A stretch of 32,207 nucleotides of DNA. It comes from Bacteroidales bacterium. Lineage in GTDB: Bacteria; Bacteroidota; Bacteroidia; Bacteroidales; UBA7960. Made by a program: the position numbers and the translations under genes. The DNA is taken from assembly GCA_003567205.1 (NCBI GenBank), contig PXAA01000032.1, positions 1-32,207 on the forward strand. Direction: 5' to 3'. Each line of letters opens with the position of its first letter. Within the stretch, counting starts at the first letter, position 1. Positions 3,860 to 26,093 of this stretch are shown piece after piece. The notes under the pieces were generated by a model, which saw only the letters and a program-made list of their open reading frames with translations, had not been told where the DNA came from and did not search any database.

Positions 3860-5102
3860 TCAATCCAGGTCTTTTATAGAATATCCCATTCCCAGCAGGT
3901 TTTCCGGTTTCAGCAATCCCCTGAGTTTTTCTTCAGGCATGACCTCGAGTGCCTTATTGGCTTCGATCACATCACATCCTTTCTCTTTCATATAATCAGC
4001 CATGCGGGAGGCGTTCCGGTAATCAATATAGGGAATCAGGGCCGTTGTGATGGATACACTATTCATAAGTTTATCACGGGCATCAGTGGCGTGTACTTTC
4101 AGATCCATCAACAGATTACTCCGGAGGGTCTGTCCGGCACCAATAAGCAGTTTTAAACTATCCAGCAAAGCATGCCCGATCACAGGCAAATAAGCGTTCA
4201 GGTCAAGGGAGCCCTGCCCGCTGAGTGAAGAAATCAGCATATCATTACTGTATACCATGTGCGCGACACCAATCACATACTCCGGAATAACCGGGTTTAC
4301 TTTACCTGGCATGATGCTGCTTCCGGGCTGACTGTCCGGGATTGATAATTCTGACCGGGCATTTAAGCCGGATGATAAAAGGCGTATATCCGAAGCGATC
4401 TTTTCCAGATTCACGGCATGGGCCTTTAAAATGGCGTGTACTTCCACCAGTGCATCCAGATTTTGCGTGGTATCTGGCAGATTTTCACTTCGTGTAACTG
4501 GCAGATTTGTGAGTTTTTGTAAAAAGGGTACCACCTCCATGATGAAATACCGTGGTATGGCCATGCCGCTTCCTGTAGCACCACCACCGAGGTTGACTAC
4601 TTTAATGCGCTCAAAACATTTTGAAACTCGCCACCAGTCGCGCGACAAAGCTTCACTGAAACAAATTGGCATGTTTGTACGGGTCAATGCTCACATAATT
4701 ACCGGGATGCATACCTTTTTTAACCAGGGCTACATTGCTGAGTATTTCATTGATGTTCATATTGATGGAGGTCCCTGCCCCACCCTGCATTGCCGGGACA
4801 ATAAAATGGTCAAAATGTTTGCCTGCTGCGATCTCTGCGGCAGCCTTCTCCAGCAATTCAAATACAGTGGCGTCTTCCAGTCCGGCCGGAAGGCCAGATG
4901 CAGGATACCTGCCAGTGGCGGCCGAATGGAACGCCACAATGCACTGGTAGCAAGCTTGTTTTACCAATCCCACGGCACGATACCACTCTTCATGAAAAAC
5001 CGGCCCCAGCGGAAAATTTTTAGTTGAACGCCAGGCATGGATGCCATACATGGCGTTACCCGGAAGCTTCACGCTTCCGAGAAAGTCTTTTTCTTCTCTC
5101 AT
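3860..5102 (-). pseudogene. aspA: Broken aspartate ammonia-lyase (aspartase/fumarase superfamily)
   Basis: Two out-of-frame pieces together look like one aspartase, which splits aspartate to fumarate and ammonia. The N-terminal piece probably starts at the Met at 5102 (MREEKDFLGSVKLPGNAMYG) and runs to a stop at 4653; it holds GGAGTSINMNINE and ends KHANLFQ-stop. The C-terminal piece resumes in another frame at SEALSRDWWRV and runs to 3860; it has the superfamily signature GSSIMPGKVNPVIPE with its catalytic Ser. By comparison with E. coli AspA, roughly 60-70 residues are missing at the joint, including the STND substrate-binding motif and the following Thr/Gln region. This is an internal deletion with loss of frame, not a simple 1-base slip. 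An assembly error is the alternative. Activity from either piece is unlikely because family active sites form from several subunits using all these motifs. Confidence 0.85.
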
Positions 5103-5144
5103 AAAGTAAAGATAAGATTTTCCAATAAATACTTTTTGCCTGGG

Positions 5145-5175
5145 TTTGCATTTAACCAAAATATTTTATAACTTG
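5145..5175 (+). promoter_or_regulatory. Candidate Bacteroidota promoter for the OmpA-family gene
   Basis: TTTG at 5145-5148 and TAACTTG at 5169-5175 are separated by 20 bp, the normal distance for the TTTG/TAnnTTTG promoter of this phylum. The -7 box is one T short of consensus. The expected leader is about 65 nt and AT-rich. Confidence 0.35.
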
Positions 5176-18252: not shown

Positions 18253-19773
18253 ATGAAACAATTGTTAATTACACTTATTCTCCTTTTATTCTCGTTGCTG
18301 TCGCCAGCACAATATGTTGATGAGTATGGCAATAACGACCATGAGGTGCTCATCAGGGCCCTCCATTCGGTATCTGAAGAGGATATTTCCCGATGGATGC
18401 ATACGATGATATCCCCAGACATGCGTGGTCGCCTGGCCGGGGATATTGGCTATGACATGGCTGCAGACTGGGCAGCCGGGAAGCTTGAATCGTGGGGATT
18501 ACAGCCGTTCTTCCCAGAAAAAGGCTTTTTCCAGAAGTTTGACCAACCGTATACACTAATTAAAGACAAAGGCCGTTTGGAAATCCATATTCCTGCCGGC
18601 GATGAAACCATTACCAAACACTATCAATACGGTGATGATTACTGGCCATGGGGCATATCAGGCAGTGGTGAAGTAACGGCGGAAGTGGTATATACCGGAC
18701 ATGGCATATCCGCACCGGAGCTTGGTTATGATGATTATGCCGGCATTGACGTGGAAGGCAGGATCGTAATTACCGAACTGGGCATCCCTTACAGCGGAAG
18801 CAACCAGGACAGCCTTATGATGTGGCAGCCTTATGTGGATCACGCGAACAAGGTAAAGTTTGCCCTTGAAAATGGTGCGGCAGGCCTGATCTTTGCATAC
18901 CACGTTGCCAGTCCCAGACCCACTGCAGATCCAGACTTTATCTTTCTTGCGGCCTCTGACCAGGTGGTCAGAGACTTGCTGGCAGGCACAGGCAAAGACT
19001 TACAGGAAGTGAGGGAGCATATCAAAACCACCCTGACCCCCATGTCGTTCAATACTGGTAAAAAGGCCACCCTGGCACTTAGCTCGGAATATTATCCTGA
19101 CGGGACCACGGCCAATGTGGTGGCCATGATTGAAGGCAGCGACCCTGAATTGAGGGAGGAATACCTTATTATCGGCGCACACCTGGACCATCTGGGCATG
19201 ATGCCGGTGTTGTTTCCAGGGGCACTGGACAATGCGTCAGGCTGTGCCCTGGCCCTTGGGATTGCCAAAGCCCTGGCAACTTCAGAAGTGGAACTCAAAC
19301 GGACATTGATCATCCTGTTATTCGGGGCAGAAGAAGTGGGCCTGGTAGGTGCCCGGCAGTTTGTAGACCGCTTTCCCCATCCCAGAGAGCAAATCAAGAT
19401 GATGATAAACCTGGATATGGTAGGAAGGGGCAACGCCTTTTTTGCAGTTACTGCAGATCCCTGGAGTAATTTGCTGGAAGTGCTGGAACGCAATAACGAC
19501 CAATGGGTGCACCGCCCTTTTATGACACGGAGCAGCCACTGGCAACAACCCATCCGCCCACGCACCGATGGCATGGTATTCTACATGGAAAAAATTCCGG
19601 CCATCACCTTCGGTACCCGGGGCGCCACTACCCCTACCCTGTATCATGTACCTGAAGATACGATGGATCAGATCAACGTCGAAATCATGCGTGATGTAAT
19701 CAAAGTACTCACCATGAGCATGATAGAACTCGGAAACATGCCCAACATAACCCTGGAACCCATTAACCCTTAG
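18253..19773 (+). CDS. M28-family zinc aminopeptidase with PA-domain insert
   Basis: A 506-residue exported protein with a signal peptide ending near residue 19 (LLSPAQ). The M28 dinuclear zinc site is complete: GAHLDHLG, GALDNASG, FGAEEVGLVGARQF (Glu-Glu pair), INLDMVGRG, and a final His in LYHVPEDTMD. A protease-associated domain lies between (about 130-230; VVYTGHGISAPELGYDDYAGIDVEGRIVI). It probably trims N-terminal residues from peptides in the periplasm. It is divergent from the tricorn-type gene. Its TAG stop is formed by the first unit of the 8-bp repeat array, so the gene runs directly into the repeats. Confidence 0.92.
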   Translation: MKQLLITLILLLFSLLSPAQYVDEYGNNDHEVLIRALHSVSEEDISRWMHTMISPDMRGRLAGDIGYDMAADWAAGKLESWGLQPFFPEKGFFQKFDQPYTLIKDKGRLEIHIPAGDETITKHYQYGDDYWPWGISGSGEVTAEVVYTGHGISAPELGYDDYAGIDVEGRIVITELGIPYSGSNQDSLMMWQPYVDHANKVKFALENGAAGLIFAYHVASPRPTADPDFIFLAASDQVVRDLLAGTGKDLQEVREHIKTTLTPMSFNTGKKATLALSSEYYPDGTTANVVAMIEGSDPELREEYLIIGAHLDHLGMMPVLFPGALDNASGCALALGIAKALATSEVELKRTLIILLFGAEEVGLVGARQFVDRFPHPREQIKMMINLDMVGRGNAFFAVTADPWSNLLEVLERNNDQWVHRPFMTRSSHWQQPIRPRTDGMVFYMEKIPAITFGTRGATTPTLYHVPEDTMDQINVEIMRDVIKVLTMSMIELGNMPNITLEPINP

Positions 19774-19897
19774 ACAATTAGACAATTAGACCATTAGACC
19801 ATTAGACCATTAGACCCTTAGACCATTAGACCCTTAGACCATTAGACCATTAGACCCTTAGACCATTAGACCATTAGACCATTAGACATTTCGACCA
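19770..19897. repeat. 8-bp tandem repeat array (TTAGACCA-type), 16 units
   Basis: Sixteen contiguous 8-bp units fill the gap between the M28 peptidase stop and the molybdoenzyme start. Units 1-2 are TTAGACAA, nine are TTAGACCA, three (units 6, 8, 11) are TTAGACCC, unit 15 is TTAGACAT and unit 16 is the degenerate TTCGACCA. The first unit supplies the TAG stop of the upstream gene; the last base of unit 16 is the A of the downstream ATG. Because 8 is not a multiple of 3, the TAG in each unit falls in all three frames. No Bacteroidota promoter box is seen inside. The pattern suggests slipped-strand expansion; a regulatory effect is unproven. Confidence 0.95.
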
Positions 19898-22323
19898 TGA
19901 AAGAACACCAGATCGACCATATCCCGCCCAACGGAAATCCTGACCACCAGGGCATGGAACGTCGCTGTTTTATAAAAATGGGGGCAGTTTTTGCCGGCGG
20001 GATGGCAAGCCTTGGTTCCCTGCTTGGATGTACAGACGAAAAGCAGAGAATCCGTCTTCCGGGGCGTTTGGAAAAAGACGGGACGGTGGTCGTTCGTGCC
20101 GGTTGTCCTGCTCATAACTGCGGGGGTCGCTGTGTATTGAAACTATTTTTAAAGGACGGGGAAATTATCCGCATAGAAACAGACGACCGCCCTGGTGACG
20201 ACATCAGCGACCCGCAGCTTCGTGCCTGCGTACGGGGCCGGGCATACCGCCGCCGGCAATATCATCCCGACCGCCTAAAATATCCTATGAAACGTGTGGG
20301 CAAGCGGGGCGAAGGTCAATTCGAACGCATATCATGGGATGAAGCCCTGGATATGATGGCATCTGAGTTAAAAAGGGTAAAAAACACCTATGGCAATTCC
20401 GCCATCCTCGTGCCATACGGCACTGGCAGCTACAACCAGACCAATGGACGGCAGACAGCGGCAAGGCTCATGAACCTCTTTGGCGGCTCCCTTGGCTTTT
20501 ACAACAGTTACAGCTGGGCCTGCATCAGCCGGGCCACACCTTATGTATATGGTACCGGTGTTACCGGCAATCAGCGACAAGACTGGGTCAACTCTAAATA
20601 CATCATTTTGTGGGGCTGGAACCCGGCGGAAATGCGTGACGGGACCAACAGCGAATACTTCCTTAAAAAAGCCAGAGAGCGCGGGGCAAAGATCATTTGC
20701 ATAGACCCCCGCATGAGCATGAGCGCCACGGCATTGGCCGATGAATGGATTCCCATACGACCAGGTACCGACACCGCCCTGATGAGTGCTATGGCCCATG
20801 TGATTATTTCAGAAGGGCTGCATGACGAACATTTTATCCGTCGCTGCTGTATTGGTTTTGACCAGACGCAGATGCCCGAAGGTATGGAAAACGAAGAGAG
20901 CTATTGCGATTATATTTTCGGGACACACGATGGCCGGCCCAAAACACCCCAATGGGCAGAAGCCATAACGGGCATTCCCGAGAATACCATTATCCGTATT
21001 GCCAGGGAGTACGGATCCATTAAACCTGCCATGCTTTATCAGGGTTATGGTATGCAGCGCCGTGCATATGGGGAACAACCGGTACTGGGCGGGTGTGTCC
21101 TGGCGGCCATTACAGGCAATGTTGGCATTCCCGGCGGATGGGCCAGTGGCATCGCCTTGCAGGCCGATGACGGCGGACCGTTCTGGAACATCTTTCCCAC
21201 AGGAAGAAACCCGGTCAACGCCATGATCCCTGTATTTTTATGGACAGAAGCCATCTTAAGGGGAAAGGAAATGGGGGCCGAAGATGGGGTGATCGGGACC
21301 GACAAGCTCGATAACAACATCAAGCTCATTTGGTGCGTGGCCTCCAACATACTCATTAACCAGCATGCCGACACCAATCGAAGTGCCAAAATTCTGAAAG
21401 ATGAACGCCTTGTGGAATTCATTGCGGTACAGGACCAGTTCTTAACGCCATCGGCAAAATTTGCCGACCTGGTTTTGCCGGTTTGCACCCAGTTTGAGAT
21501 GTGGGGCCTTGAAGATGGCTGGAAATACGGTGATGAAGTGATCCTGATGCCCAAGGTGCTTGATCCACCGCATGAAACAAAAAGTGATTACCAGATTGCG
21601 GCCGGCCTGGCAGAACGCCTGGGTTTAAAAGAGGAATATACCCTGGGCCGCAATGAGCGCGACTGGATCGAATGGGCGGTCAAATATTTCCGGAATACCC
21701 GCTTCCCGGATATACCCGACCTTGAAAAGTTGCATGAAATGAACCGGGGCGTATATACCAGGCCCGTGCATGAACCAAAAGTAGCCTTCCGCGATTTTCG
21801 CAGGGACCCGGTCAAGCATCCTTTAAACACCCCATCGGGTAAGGTGGAGATTTTTTCCAAAACCTTGTTTGATATGGGCAAACCCGATACCATACCAGCC
21901 GTCCCAAAATACATACAGGAATGGGAAAGTCCTTTTGGCGAAGAAAGCAGGCGCTATCCCCTGCAAGCCATCGGGCATCACTATATGCCGCGGGTGCATT
22001 CCACCCACGACGGTATTGACTGGCTGGAAGAAGCCTTTCCGCAGCGTGTATTCATTAATCCCATTGATGCCCAAGCCAGGGAGATCAAAGATGGAAACAC
22101 AGTGCATGTGTACAACAGCCGGGGAGCAATAATGATTCCTTGCCGGATCACTCAAAAAATAATGCCCGGTGTGGTCAACATACCACAGGGTGCCTGGTGG
22201 GCACCCGACAAAGACGGCATTGACCGCCGAGGCAACGTAAATGTATTAACCAGCCATCGCTGGACTCCGCTGGCATTCGGTAATGCCCAGCATACAATGA
22301 TGGTGGAAGTAAAGAAAACATGA
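19897..22323 (+). CDS. DmsA-like molybdopterin oxidoreductase catalytic subunit
   Basis: An 808-residue bis-MGD enzyme of the DMSO reductase family. The N-terminus has a Tat signal (ERRCFIKMG, Arg22-Arg23) and a lipobox-like LLGC at about 42-45. The [4Fe-4S] ligands are CPAHNCGGRC plus the Cys of LRACVRGR. The segment DRLKYPMKRVGKRGEGQFERISW and IPIRPGTDTALMSAMAHVII closely resemble E. coli DmsA, and the probable molybdenum ligand is Ser206 in NSYSWACIS. The C-terminal cofactor domain ends NVLTSHRWTPLAFGNAQHT. It should reduce an S-oxide, N-oxide or similar acceptor outside the cytoplasm; the substrate cannot be fixed from sequence. A second in-frame Met at 19954 would place the Arg pair at residues 3-4. 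It overlaps the next gene by 4 bp (ATGA). Confidence 0.92.
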   Translation: MKEHQIDHIPPNGNPDHQGMERRCFIKMGAVFAGGMASLGSLLGCTDEKQRIRLPGRLEKDGTVVVRAGCPAHNCGGRCVLKLFLKDGEIIRIETDDRPGDDISDPQLRACVRGRAYRRRQYHPDRLKYPMKRVGKRGEGQFERISWDEALDMMASELKRVKNTYGNSAILVPYGTGSYNQTNGRQTAARLMNLFGGSLGFYNSYSWACISRATPYVYGTGVTGNQRQDWVNSKYIILWGWNPAEMRDGTNSEYFLKKARERGAKIICIDPRMSMSATALADEWIPIRPGTDTALMSAMAHVIISEGLHDEHFIRRCCIGFDQTQMPEGMENEESYCDYIFGTHDGRPKTPQWAEAITGIPENTIIRIAREYGSIKPAMLYQGYGMQRRAYGEQPVLGGCVLAAITGNVGIPGGWASGIALQADDGGPFWNIFPTGRNPVNAMIPVFLWTEAILRGKEMGAEDGVIGTDKLDNNIKLIWCVASNILINQHADTNRSAKILKDERLVEFIAVQDQFLTPSAKFADLVLPVCTQFEMWGLEDGWKYGDEVILMPKVLDPPHETKSDYQIAAGLAERLGLKEEYTLGRNERDWIEWAVKYFRNTRFPDIPDLEKLHEMNRGVYTRPVHEPKVAFRDFRRDPVKHPLNTPSGKVEIFSKTLFDMGKPDTIPAVPKYIQEWESPFGEESRRYPLQAIGHHYMPRVHSTHDGIDWLEEAFPQRVFINPIDAQAREIKDGNTVHVYNSRGAIMIPCRITQKIMPGVVNIPQGAWWAPDKDGIDRRGNVNVLTSHRWTPLAFGNAQHTMMVEVKKT

Positions 22324-22940
22324 ACCAATTGGCCTTTTATTTCGACGCCTCTTCTTGTTCGGGCTGCAAAACCTGTCAGGTAGCGTGCAAGGACAAACAC
22401 GATTTGCCCATGGCCGTGCTTTGGCGAAGGGTATATGAAGTGTGCGGGGGCGACTGGATCCGGAAGGGCCCTGCCTGGATCCCGAACATTTATGCTTACC
22501 ACATGTCTATGGCTTGTAATCACTGTGAAGAACCCATTTGTATGGATGCTTGTCCCACCAAAGCCATTGTAAAGAATGATCGGGGCATCGTACTGATCGA
22601 TTATGACCGGTGCATGGGATGTAAATATTGTGAGTGGACCTGCCCTTACGGTGCTTTACAATTCGACCCGGTTAAAAAGGTCATGACAAAATGCACTTTT
22701 TGCGCCGACTACCTGGAAGAAGGAAAGCCGCCGGTATGCGTATCTGCCTGTCCAATGCGGGCATTGGACTACGGCGATCTGGATGAACTGGCGCAACGGC
22801 ATGGCAGAAGCAATGAATACTTTCCGTTGCCAAAAGAAAAATACACCAAACCGGCCCTGGTCATTAGCCCGCACCTGCATGCCAGAAAAGCTGGCAACCG
22901 TGAATTCAAAATTGCTAATAAAGAGGAGGTTAAGCCATGA
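22320..22940 (+). CDS. DmsB-like four-cluster ferredoxin subunit
   Basis: A 206-residue electron-transfer subunit with four cysteine groups for four [4Fe-4S] clusters: CSGCKTCQVAC, CNHCEEPICMDACP, CMGCKYCEWTCPYG and CTFCADYLEEGKPPVCVSACP. Size and order match DmsB, which passes electrons from the membrane anchor to the catalytic subunit. It has no signal of its own and would be carried out with the Tat partner, as in other family members. ATGA overlaps with the genes on both sides show translational coupling. Confidence 0.93.
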   Translation: MNQLAFYFDASSCSGCKTCQVACKDKHDLPMAVLWRRVYEVCGGDWIRKGPAWIPNIYAYHMSMACNHCEEPICMDACPTKAIVKNDRGIVLIDYDRCMGCKYCEWTCPYGALQFDPVKKVMTKCTFCADYLEEGKPPVCVSACPMRALDYGDLDELAQRHGRSNEYFPLPKEKYTKPALVISPHLHARKAGNREFKIANKEEVKP

Positions 22941-23806
22941 ACAACAACGAATGGCCTTTGGTATTCTTCACCATGCTGTCGCAGATCAGCGTGGGCATTC
23001 TCATTGGAGGCCTTGCCTTGTGGCTGTCGGTAAAAAACACGGAGTCCACGGCCCTGGATACACTCAAAAAGGTGCTGATCATTAGCGCTTTTGGATCAAT
23101 GGGCATTGCCCTGCTAATATCTTTTCTGCATTTAGCCTCCCCCCTGCATTCGGTGTATGCCCTCAGCAACGCAGGCTCTTCCTGGCTGAGCAGGGAGATC
23201 ATCCTGACCTCCCTTTATTTGTTCAGCCTGGCAATATGTTTCACCTCCATTCTGTACAATGTTCCACACAGCAATCTGTTCGGACAACTATACCTGGCTT
23301 CCCTGATCATTGGCATTGTACTGATTTGGGCCATTTCACGGGTTTACATGATCCCTACTGTGCCTTTATGGGATACCCCGGCCACATCTGTTGCCTTTTT
23401 CAGCACGGCTCTGGTGCTCGGGGGCGGCATGGTACTGGTTATGATCAGCCTGCTGGCAGGCAAAAACATTCAATTGCCCGACATGGAAATATTACAATCG
23501 GCCATGTTTTACTTGGTGAGCGCAGCTGTTTTTATCACCCTTCTTAACATGCTCCTGATACAACCTGATATTAGTGCCGCAACCGGTAGTTTTCCGTTGC
23601 CTTATATTTCACAGTGGTGGAAAACAGTCCGGATCGTTTTTCTTCTGGCAGGATTTAGCGGCCTGACCTACTGGTTCACTTATCAATTGCCTTCATCGGG
23701 GGGAAGCACATCATGGTTAATCTACCTGTCCGTTGCCTGTCTGCTGTTCTCTGAAATTGCCGGAAGATATATATTCTATGCATCCTATTACCGGGTAGGC
23801 GTATAA
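22937..23806 (+). CDS. DmsC-like membrane anchor subunit
   Basis: A 289-residue protein with about eight hydrophobic helices and little else, matching the size and topology of DmsC. The opening EWPLVFFTMLSQISVGILIGG resembles DmsC N-termini, and FLHLASPLHSVYALSNAGSSWLSREI matches the family's loop after TM2, whose conserved polar and His residues lie near the quinol site. DmsC oxidises menaquinol and feeds the B subunit. It is coupled to the DmsB-like gene by a 4-bp overlap and followed after 20 bp by the membrane/NTPase fusion gene. Confidence 0.9.
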   Translation: MNNNEWPLVFFTMLSQISVGILIGGLALWLSVKNTESTALDTLKKVLIISAFGSMGIALLISFLHLASPLHSVYALSNAGSSWLSREIILTSLYLFSLAICFTSILYNVPHSNLFGQLYLASLIIGIVLIWAISRVYMIPTVPLWDTPATSVAFFSTALVLGGGMVLVMISLLAGKNIQLPDMEILQSAMFYLVSAAVFITLLNMLLIQPDISAATGSFPLPYISQWWKTVRIVFLLAGFSGLTYWFTYQLPSSGGSTSWLIYLSVACLLFSEIAGRYIFYASYYRVGV

Positions 23807-23826: not shown

Positions 23827-25524
23827 ATGGACAAACAGCACGACATCTGGTTAAAAGCAGCCGTTATCGGCAGTTTGTGGGGTGCATCCGAAATCGTGCT
23901 GGGTAGTTTTCTCCACAATCTCAGGATTCCGTTCAGCGGCAATATGCTGACCGCCATCGGGATCATCCTGATGGTTTCCGGACACCGTTTGTGGCCCGAA
24001 AGGGGCCTTATTATCCGGGCCGGGCTGATATGTGCGGCATTGAAATCCCTGTCGCCAAGCCCCATTATCCTTGGCCCCATGCTTTCAATTTTTATGCAGG
24101 CCAGCCTGATGGAAGCCGCCCTGTTTATTGGCAGGCGCAGCCATGCCGGCTATATTCTGGGAGGCGGGCTGGCCGTGAGCTGGAACCTGCTTTACCGGAT
24201 CCTGTCTACCATTGTCCTTTATGGAAGTCCGTTCATTGCCCTGTATCAAAACCTGATTGATTTTTTTGTCAGCCAAACCTCCTGGCAAGTGAAAGGGTAT
24301 TGGGGCCCCATCCTCATCCTCTGGGCTGTATTTTTTTTATGGGGTGCTGCTGCTGCCATTGCTGGCATCATGATATCACGGAGTGCCGAAAAAGATGCCC
24401 ACAGGTGGGAAATTCCACCGGGAAAATCGAAAGATGCAGCACTGAACATGCCGGTTACAAAAGCAGGCGCAAGCTATTTATTACGACCGGTGGGTGTATT
24501 GTTCCTGATTGTTGCAGGCTTGTACAGCCTGGTCAACCTGGCATTCATCCTGACCATACCCATTCTGGCCCTTTTTCTGCTGATTTTATATATTTATGAC
24601 CGCCAGCTCTTAGCCCGGTTTGGCAAAAAGCGTGGATTCTGGCTGGCCATTGCCATCATGATTGCCTTGTCGGGCTTTTTGATGGGGCCCGATTACGGTT
24701 TCAGCCGCGACGGCCTGATTATCGGCCTGGAGATGGGCATGCGCGCCATATACGTAATCGGCGGATTTGGAATTATCAGCAATGAGTTGCAGCGACCCCA
24801 GGTGGTTTCCCTGTTCAGTGGAAAGAAAATGGCCCCCTTTTTGTCGGCTGTCCGGATTGCTTTTCAAACCACCCCCTTGCTCATTGAAACCATCCCCGGG
24901 AAAAAGGCATGGCGGCGACCGGCCAGGGTGCTTTCCGGTATGGTAGGAAGCATGGCCTATTCATTGGAATATATGCGCGCAAATAATCAGCAACATAAGG
25001 TGTTTTTGGTTGTTGGTGAAAAAGGTGCCGGAAAAACCAGCCTTGCCGGCCAGATTACAGACATCTTGAAAAACAATGGACTGCACGTTGCAGGCATTTT
25101 GGCGCCAGCTTATTTTGAAGCAGGAGAAAGATGTGGTTACATGGTCAAAAACATTGAAAGCGGTAAAGAAATCCCTTTGTGTAAGCGCACCACACGCACA
25201 ACGGAAAACATGCCGGGATGCTATGCCTTTGATCCGGGTGGTATTCGTTTCGGGGAAGAACTGCTTTCTGCAATAAATCACGAACACAAAGACCTGGTGG
25301 TCATAGATGAATTGGGCCCGTTTGAATTGAAAGGCATAGGCTGGGATCCCGCCCTCTCGAAACTTCTGAAACATTACAATGGACCGATGCTCTGGGTGGT
25401 GAGGGAAGCACTGACTGATGAAATATCAAATAAATACGGGGCTGCGGTCCTGGCAAGGTTTTATGCAGGGGAAACCCGGCCCGAAGAAGCAGCAGAGGTA
25501 ATCATTCAATCAATAACGGGGTGA
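23827..25524 (+). CDS. Fusion: ECF-transporter-like membrane regions + THEP1-like P-loop NTPase
   Basis: A 565-residue protein not matched by any single family I know. Residues about 8-185 hold roughly five or six helices in a compact block (IGSLWGASEIVLGSFLHNLRIPFSGN) reminiscent of ECF substrate-binding (S) components. Residues about 215-385 hold a second block (GLIIGLEMGMRAIYVIGGFGIISNELQRP; VRIAFQTTPLLIETIPGKKAWRR) resembling the T component (CbiQ/EcfT). Residues about 390-565 are a soluble NTPase with Walker A GEKGAGKTS (397-405), Walker B LVVIDELGPFEL and THEP1-like RFYAGETRPEEA. The NTPase call is firm; the S and T resemblances are inference. Between the DmsABC-like genes (20-bp gap) and mobA (11-bp gap), it may serve molybdate or tungstate uptake or cofactor supply. 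Confidence 0.72.
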   Translation: MDKQHDIWLKAAVIGSLWGASEIVLGSFLHNLRIPFSGNMLTAIGIILMVSGHRLWPERGLIIRAGLICAALKSLSPSPIILGPMLSIFMQASLMEAALFIGRRSHAGYILGGGLAVSWNLLYRILSTIVLYGSPFIALYQNLIDFFVSQTSWQVKGYWGPILILWAVFFLWGAAAAIAGIMISRSAEKDAHRWEIPPGKSKDAALNMPVTKAGASYLLRPVGVLFLIVAGLYSLVNLAFILTIPILALFLLILYIYDRQLLARFGKKRGFWLAIAIMIALSGFLMGPDYGFSRDGLIIGLEMGMRAIYVIGGFGIISNELQRPQVVSLFSGKKMAPFLSAVRIAFQTTPLLIETIPGKKAWRRPARVLSGMVGSMAYSLEYMRANNQQHKVFLVVGEKGAGKTSLAGQITDILKNNGLHVAGILAPAYFEAGERCGYMVKNIESGKEIPLCKRTTRTTENMPGCYAFDPGGIRFGEELLSAINHEHKDLVVIDELGPFELKGIGWDPALSKLLKHYNGPMLWVVREALTDEISNKYGAAVLARFYAGETRPEEAAEVIIQSITG

Positions 25525-25535
25525 TTGATTAAGAA

Positions 25536-26093
25536 ATGGTAACAATTAGTGGTGTGGTGCTTGCCGGAGGCAAAAGCCGGCGGTTCGGCCAGGATAAAGG
25601 CCTTTATCCATTCAGGGGAAAGCCCCTGGTGATGCATGCCCTGAAAATTCTCCGGCCCCACTGCGATGAACTGCTGATCAGCACCAATAATCCGGAAGGC
25701 TTCAAGGCCTTCGGTGTGAAAACCATCAAGGATATTCACCCGGATTGTGGACCCCTGGGGGGCATCCACAGTGGACTGACCTGTGCCGGCGGGGATCTGA
25801 TCGCCCTGATTCCCTGCGACACCCCTTTTGTTCCTTCATCCTTGTACACTTTTCTTTTGCATCATATCGGCAGCCACCAGGCCATCATGCCCACCCACGG
25901 CAAATATACAGAGCCCATGTGTGCCATTTATGCAAAAAACTGCCTGGACCAGATTGAACAAGCTATGGCTGAAAAAAGATACAAGATCCTCGATGCCCTG
26001 AAAACAATTGATGCATCATTCATCAACGTAGAAACCCAGGCCTTTTTCAGACCGGATATCTTCCATAATATAAACTACAAAAAGGATCTGTGA
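25536..26093 (+). CDS. mobA: Molybdenum cofactor guanylyltransferase
   Basis: A 185-residue enzyme that joins GMP from GTP to molybdopterin to form the guanine dinucleotide cofactor used by DMSO-reductase-family enzymes. The GTP-binding motif LAGGKSRRFGQDKG is at residues 9-22, the Mg2+-binding segment is LIPCDTPFV, and the CGPLGGIHSGL motif is present; the length is typical. It closes the molybdoenzyme operon, 11 bp after the fusion gene. No other cofactor genes (moaA, moeA, mobB) are in the window, so the pathway must be completed elsewhere. Confidence 0.93.
   Translation: MVTISGVVLAGGKSRRFGQDKGLYPFRGKPLVMHALKILRPHCDELLISTNNPEGFKAFGVKTIKDIHPDCGPLGGIHSGLTCAGGDLIALIPCDTPFVPSSLYTFLLHHIGSHQAIMPTHGKYTEPMCAIYAKNCLDQIEQAMAEKRYKILDALKTIDASFINVETQAFFRPDIFHNINYKKDL

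Follow-up and report, generated by a model that had tools for sequence, protein, structure and literature searches.

The window, that is, the whole stretch of 32,207 nucleotides analysed here, is a 32 kb contig of a 1.72 Mb draft genome that is 75% complete. It carries on its forward strand, in this order, genes for the DmsA-, DmsB- and DmsC-type subunits of a molybdenum enzyme, an open frame for a 565-residue fusion protein, and a gene for a MobA-type guanylyltransferase (Table 1). The fusion protein joins two membrane blocks to a THEP1-type NTPase domain and is encoded by a single copy in the window's own genome. A sequence-only reading of the same DNA had given gaps of 11-20 bp throughout this operon, which is correct on either side of the fusion (20 bp on the DmsC side, 11 bp on the MobA side) and incorrect for the Dms genes, which overlap one another by 4 bp. 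The dms operon is preceded, again on the forward strand, by a gene for an M28-family peptidase (18253-19773). Elsewhere in the window, two overlapping minus-strand frames (3860-4687 and 4653-5159) resemble, by eye, a single enzyme of aspartase/fumarase type that is interrupted by a frameshift.

Table 1. Features of the fusion gene and its operon, with positions in the window
Feature	Position	Strand	Support
S-T-THEP1 fusion protein P0001	23827..25524	+	open frame, AlphaFold2 model, relatives
Block 1, ECF S-component-like, residues 1-195	23827..24411	+	5EDL (YkoE) fold match; residue conservation
Block 2, ECF T-like, residues 206-389	24442..24993	+	EcfT/CbiQ top fold matches
THEP1-type NTPase domain, residues 389-565	24991..25521	+	PF03266 E 5e-19; 1YE8, 2I3B folds
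Walker A GEKGAGKTS, residues 397-405	25015..25041	+	G-x4-GK[TS] in 57/61 relatives
Walker B region, residues 490-501, D494-E495	25294..25329	+	D494, E495 in 61/61 relatives
DmsA-type molybdenum enzyme, catalytic subunit	19897..22323	+	TIGR02166 916 bits, over cut-off
DmsB-type iron-sulfur subunit	22320..22940	+	TIGR02951 231 bits, over cut-off
DmsC-type membrane anchor	22937..23806	+	PF04976 E 1e-25
MobA-type guanylyltransferase	25536..26093	+	PF12804 E 8e-40; TIGR02665 134 bits, below 152-bit cut-off

A whole-protein AlphaFold2 model was built from 61 sequences (mean pLDDT 83.6, pTM 0.67). It consists of helices at residues 3-190, a low-confidence linker at 194-213, helices at 219-387 and, from residue 390 on, an alpha/beta domain that is soluble; this comes close to the two polytopic blocks (8-185 and 215-385) and P-loop domain of the sequence-only reading. 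Residues 1-385 match no Pfam or NCBIfam family above its cut-off, and comparison of the membrane part with the sequences of solved chains gave no match up to E 10. Of 145 Pfam families matched in all, the 25 that were matched by most of the 61 members include no CbiQ or S-component family.

Block 1 matches entry 5EDL, which we take to be YkoE, both in Foldseek (prob 1.00, E 0.23, TMt 0.58) and in the VIA structural aligner (Z 15.6, 172 residues aligned, rmsd 7.4), where the next-best row, Lnt, is far below it at Z 7.5. By this match block 1 has the S-component fold of ECF transporters. Its nearly invariant residues are E22, H30, N31, K73, S76-P77-S78 and P84-M85, of which E22, H30, N31, K73, P77 and S78 are constant in 61/61 relatives, in an alignment (A3) whose block 1 conservation is partly forced by the patterns used to find the relatives. 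A recheck on 35 proteins found by profile showed the same six residues in 34/34 proteins with a residue at that place, and C69, invariant in A3, to be variable. The six are candidate residues of a binding pocket.

Block 2 was folded alone (20 sequences, pLDDT 78.1), because NTPase rows fill the fold-search list of the full-length protein, and ECF rows missing from that list were not counted as absence; block 1 was compared within the full-length model. The five best Foldseek rows for block 2 are all EcfT (E 0.13-0.7, prob 0.38-0.93), and the nine best VIA rows are EcfT or CbiQ (Z 7.4-8.9), with the next unrelated row at 6.4. Block 2 is thus predicted to have a T-component fold, with scores that are modest for a helical bundle and a likeness at the level of fold only. 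Its conserved residues are W272, R306, A307, F314 and P350. ECF T components carry two A-R-G/S coupling motifs; the motif pattern is found nowhere in block 2 of 59/61 members and once in 2/61, so that none has the pair. The fold comparison proposed by the sequence-only reading therefore bears out its ECF S-like and T-like blocks, clearly for block 1 (YkoE) and modestly for block 2 (best EcfT/CbiQ).

The soluble domain belongs to the THEP1/NTPase_1 group by sequence family, fold and both Walker motifs. Residues 394-535 match PF03266 with 69 bits against a cut-off of 23.9, and a match is present in 61/61 members at a search threshold of E up to 10 (best E 5e-30). The family profile finds THEP1 entry 1YE8 among PDB sequences at E 4e-14, and the fold matches 1YE8 (Z 15.9) and 2I3B (Z 15.2). 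The ABC signature pattern occurs in none of the 61 NTPase domains, and no ABC ATPase pair (EcfA/EcfA') was found in the fusion or among the operon genes scanned. The PF03266 and 1YE8 matches uphold the earlier placement of a THEP1-type NTPase where an ABC ATPase would be, its role being a predicted one. Two readings of that role remain: the domain may be a motor in place of the ABC ATPase pair, or an enzyme, weakly MobB-like, that acts on an incoming cofactor. Judged by sequence and model, the fusion appears to be an ECF transporter in outline that falls outside the standard ECF architecture.

YkoE is described as the S component in a thiamine ECF system of group I (PMC5037267). The fusion is like YkoEDC of group I in the S fold that block 1 shares with YkoE, in the resemblance of block 2 to EcfT/CbiQ and in having its dedicated parts encoded together. 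It differs from YkoEDC in being one polypeptide with a THEP1 domain, in lacking an ABC signature and the paired A-R-G/S motif, in its gene context, and in a membrane part that has no detectable sequence similarity to solved chains. The third domain has in common with THEP1/NTPCR NTPases (PF03266; 1YE8, 2I3B) its fold, its Walker A motif and a Walker B with D-E; the solved chains, however, have 178 and 189 residues, and in the fusion a transporter-like membrane protein is attached to this domain. ModABC and WtpABC resemble the fusion in their linkage to molybdoenzymes and cofactor genes; unlike them, the fusion and the operon genes scanned include no binding protein, ABC permease or ABC ATPase, and the family occurs both with and without ModB/WtpB-like permeases.

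Relatives were sought at several taxonomic depths. The family was matched in 28/41 genomes searched near the window's genome, its own included. A scan of GTDB genomes by pattern and tblastn turned up 385 loci that encode relatives of the membrane part, and 80 of these were kept for inspection. The taxon titles, which cover those 80, are mainly of Bacteroidota, with four Ignavibacteriales and one each of Elusimicrobia, KSB1, Fimbriimonadaceae and Alphaproteobacteria. Membrane and THEP1 parts lie in one frame at 78/80 loci; one exception is cut by a contig end (L045), and at the other (L110) separate genes next to one another encode THEP1, MobA and the membrane protein. With matches in 28/41 nearby genomes and one frame at 78/80 loci, the fusion is not a product of chance.

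A class-level survey yielded 2/149 matching genomes, namely the window's genome and a weak match (L112). The weak match (L112:955-2031, minus strand) is a divergent protein of 358 residues that is related to block 1 (37.5 bits) and has no THEP1 part; its 3.4 kb of sequence contain three more frames that reach 100 residues, none of them recognised by eye as a molybdenum gene. The family is thus patchy. The profile test was carried out at order level, where 48/148 genomes carry the family. In 12 of these 48 the membrane part forms a frame of its own, 398-438 residues long and lacking THEP1; a few of the remainder are fragments. At least four of the 12 membrane-only genomes have a separate THEP1 gene: adjacent in G221, nearby in G233 and elsewhere in G031 and G038. 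The split of THEP1 from the membrane part in these 12 genomes, and its position beside MobA at L110 and L158, is compatible with both a motor and an enzyme role. The separate THEP1 gene of G038 (L160) lies near XdhC-like and xanthine-dehydrogenase-like genes, a further molybdenum link for THEP1.

Gene neighbourhoods were examined within three same-strand genes of the family at the 80 loci, with MobA/MocA-like, DmsA-like, XdhC, ModE-like, MoeA, XDH and DUF364 genes being tracked; 9/80 family genes are located at a contig edge. Neighbours were labelled by local profiles made from neighbour clusters, representatives of which were checked against Pfam. One or more tracked genes adjoin the family at 50/80 loci, against 3/169 control positions chosen within these loci at a distance of seven genes or more, and this bears out, for the family as surveyed, the link to molybdoenzyme and cofactor genes seen in the window. 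The commonest neighbour cluster is MobA/MocA-like (23/80 loci), and it supplies the immediate same-strand neighbour at 15/80. It mixes MobA-like and MocA-like proteins: seven of the 23 look MocA-like by a start motif that we presume to tell the two apart. DUF364 is encoded directly upstream of the family at 22/80 loci, and MoeA directly downstream in two genomes (G191, L069). A gene for a ModE-like HTH protein is near the family at 5/80 loci, 'ModE-like' being our own label for proteins of which the two scanned match HTH_1 alone, below its cut-off. An M28 peptidase cluster is close to the fusion at 10/80 loci. No tracked gene is nearby at 26/80 loci, including those of Maribellus (L053, L073).

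Some operons stand out. L084 and L098 have ModE-like, TonB receptor, DUF364 and fusion genes. The operon of G191 (L196), a genome without a MoaC match, consists of TonB receptor, DUF364, fusion, MoeA and MogA-like genes. In G031 and G038, the order is MobA, membrane part, molybdoenzyme, Fe-S protein and a protein that we take to be NrfD-like; the enzyme of G031 is PhsA-like.

Co-occurrence was tested in 148 order-level genomes, 147 of them requested at a completeness of at least 90% plus the window's own. PF01568 served as the marker for DMSOR-type molybdoenzymes and MoaC as that for cofactor synthesis; TupABC, xanthine-oxidase-type enzymes and MoaD/MoaB/MoeB lie outside the marker set. Positive genomes numbered 68 for PF01568, 63 for MoaC, 65 for MoeA, 38 for MoaA_C, 27 for ModA, 13 for NifD and 10 for MoaE. 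ModB was over its cut-off in 20, and 50 had a weaker, WtpB-like match.

The family tracks molybdoenzymes even where MoaC-based synthesis is missing. The 85 MoaC-less genomes divide into 15 with enzyme and family, two with the enzyme only, two with the family only and 66 with neither. As would be expected of a hypothetical importer of molybdenum cofactor (Moco), the family is present in 15/17 MoaC-less molybdoenzyme genomes, compared with 2/68 genomes that have neither MoaC nor the enzyme; Fisher tests, which treat the genomes as independent of kinship, give p 1e-12 for this comparison and p 4e-12 when the window's genome is left out. A stricter comparison within molybdoenzyme genomes finds the family in 15/17 without MoaC versus 26/51 with MoaC (p 0.009). 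The 15 genomes are spread over 12 taxonomic families. Among all 48 family-positive genomes, 46 have MoaC or a PF01568 molybdoenzyme and 31 have MoaC. The genomes with the enzyme and neither MoaC nor family are G190 and G282; those with the family and neither MoaC nor PF01568 are G036 and G313, the latter with a ModA match below cut-off. Ten enzymes from MoaC-less genomes were scanned, and four are over cut-offs, as NapA (G221, G312), FdhA (G218) and DmsA (G210); the other six have PhsA as their best match, below cut-off.

No MoaA_C match was found in any of the 85 MoaC-less genomes, and MoeA is present in three of them; it occurs in 3/17 family-positive MoaC-less genomes and is without a match in 12/15 of those that have the enzyme. 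A WtpB/ModB-like permease is present in 26/31 family-positive MoaC-positive genomes, and no ModB/WtpB-like match was found in the 17 family-positive MoaC-less ones. Nitrogenase was considered as a reason for molybdenum uptake in MoaC-less genomes and rejected, NifD being present in 13/148 genomes and 0/48 family-positive ones.

Draft gaps account poorly for the missing synthesis genes. When one minus completeness is taken as the chance of missing a gene, 2.7 missed MoaC genes are expected among the 68 molybdoenzyme genomes and 17 were seen, a number reached in 0 of 200,000 simulations; with miss rates doubled, p is 3e-5. Nine of the 15 MoaC-less enzyme-and-family genomes are at least 95% complete. 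MoaE was rejected as a further marker of lost synthesis, since 53/63 MoaC-positive genomes have no match to it and all ten with a match are MoaC-positive. MoaA_C (PF06463) is also insensitive here, with matches in 38/63 MoaC-positive genomes. Because MoaE is rare despite MoaC, the synthesis pathway of these bacteria is partly non-canonical, and the absence of a known gene tells less here than it otherwise would. In most of these Bacteroidota the known large subunit of molybdopterin synthase seems to be lacking (MoaC 63, MoaE 10). The window's genome has no MoaC, MoaA_C, MoeA or WtpB-like match; G014 and G016, from the same genus, have matches to all four, and for this reason the window's species, known from a 75% complete genome, may also make the cofactor. 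Import and synthesis may both be open to it.

The fusion is very probably an ECF-like importer. Its likeliest cargo, which we name with moderate confidence, is molybdopterin, either metal-free or bearing Mo/W (Moco). Enzymes in genomes without MoaC and MoaA would need molybdopterin from outside, and the co-occurrence favours molybdopterin or the finished cofactor over molybdate or tungstate. A probable importer with the fold of vitamin transporters, frequently adjacent to MobA and at some loci accompanied by an outer-membrane receptor, would suit that need. The MoeA and MogA-like genes beside the fusion of G191 fit import of metal-free molybdopterin with subsequent metal insertion; the 12/15 genomes without a MoeA match fit import of a metal-bearing cofactor. 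The complete proposal, a dedicated single-polypeptide S-T-NTPase importer of molybdopterin or Moco that is powered by a THEP1-type NTPase and not by ABC ATPases, is offered tentatively.

From the architecture, predicted folds, gene linkage and co-occurrence we infer transport, cargo, order of steps and a role for NTP hydrolysis as follows. The TonB-dependent receptor, the gene of which adjoins the fusion in some relatives, would carry the compound over the outer membrane. The fusion would then act as an inner-membrane importer of molybdopterin, metal-free or with Mo/W: its S-like block would bind the pterin on the periplasmic side, its T-like block would support passage as in ECF vitamin transporters, and its THEP1 domain would bind and hydrolyse a nucleotide, as the motor of the cycle or as an enzyme that works on the cofactor once it arrives. 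Inside the cell, MogA and MoeA, where present, would insert the metal, and MobA would add GMP, giving the bis-MGD cofactor that the DmsA-type enzyme encoded nearby would use.

The sequence-only reading had put molybdate or tungstate first as cargo. That the same S-T-THEP1 machine imports such an oxyanion, or a metal-chelate by way of the TonB receptor, now seems unlikely. The family is most enriched in genomes that lack MoaC and MoaA and, for the most part, MoeA, to which an oxyanion would be of no use (15 family-and-enzyme genomes without MoaC or MoaA_C, 12 of them without MoeA); a WtpB/ModB-like permease is there already in 26/31 of the family-positive genomes with MoaC; and the fold match of block 1 is to a vitamin S component. 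On the other side, the absence of a ModB/WtpB-like permease match from the 17 family-positive MoaC-less genomes would suit an oxyanion importer, as would the gene labelled ModE-like (HTH_1 below cut-off) at 5/80 loci and DUF364, which is annotated 'putative heavy-metal chelation' and linked in its structure paper to tungstate/molybdate transport genes (PMC2954201). Molybdate import fails to explain the MoaC-less genomes unless they have a pterin pathway of a new type, an escape that the rarity of MoaE makes real.

It is less likely still that the fusion imports a pterin of another kind, a cofactor precursor or some compound resembling flavin, the link to molybdoenzymes being indirect. The same structure paper ties DUF364 to flavin/pterin chemistry as well as metal uptake (PMC2954201), and such a cargo would suit the 26/80 loci without tracked neighbours and the two genomes with neither marker (G036, G313). 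Against it are the presence of MoaC or a PF01568 molybdoenzyme in 46/48 family-positive genomes, the rank of MobA/MocA-like genes as commonest neighbour (23/80) and MoeA directly downstream in G191 and L069.

A very doubtful alternative is a membrane-bound, MobB-like assembly protein that loads cofactor, handing Moco to MobA and the enzyme with no transport: the THEP1 domain is weakly MobB-like (PF03205 E 0.02, 15 bits against a cut-off of 26.6; MobB-type structure 2F1R at Z 6.4), MobA adjoins the fusion and DmsA-like genes are in the same operon, but the S-like and T-like membrane blocks and the TonB receptors of some operons argue against it and it leaves molybdoenzymes without MoaC unexplained.

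Import of molybdopterin or Moco would bear on a recognised puzzle. The prevailing view, as given in PMC9793310, is that cells must make Moco de novo, with movement between organisms by unknown means. In a survey that covered almost 5,900 organisms, 292 bacteria without nitrogenase and 13 with it are listed as having molybdoenzymes and no complete cofactor pathway (PMC6147048); the survey's passages on these orphan molybdoproteins suggest new synthesis parts or Mo-independent forms, leave the reason open and do not raise import (PMC6147048). The presence of the family in 15/17 orphan-enzyme genomes offers one testable answer, which is that the cofactor is taken up. The nearest parallel is dietary Moco uptake in C. 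elegans, which likewise takes ready-made cofactor from outside (PMC9793310); it differs in being an animal system in which transport is by unknown means, with no related gene named in the account available (PMC9793310). Our literature search found no paper that characterises a bacterial importer of molybdopterin or Moco, and passing mentions only: 'molybdopterin uptake' is speculated for T11SS (PMC12282271), a 'molybdopterin import cluster' is named in D. hafniense without detail (PMC4511579), and 'molybdenum cofactor transporters' of possible bacterial origin are mentioned for the fungus Geosiphon, with credit to another paper (PMC13315312). If the proposed import is real, Bacteroidota could live on a neighbour's molybdenum cofactor, Moco would be a shared good in anaerobic communities and part of the 'orphan' molybdoenzymes would be explained. 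THEP1 NTPases would gain a role, and the ECF design a non-ABC version.

Of the two genomes with the enzyme and neither MoaC nor the family, G190 encodes an MFS protein between MobA and NarG. The narG operon of G282 encodes, before MobA, a 213-residue protein with a GSLWG-like start (L195:1003-1644). This protein resembles block 1 no more than suggestively (4.3 bits, a score that 2/500 shuffles also reached; hhalign probability 27%), and it was not counted as a member of the family. With its GSLWG...E...H motif, this membrane protein may be a stand-alone S component.
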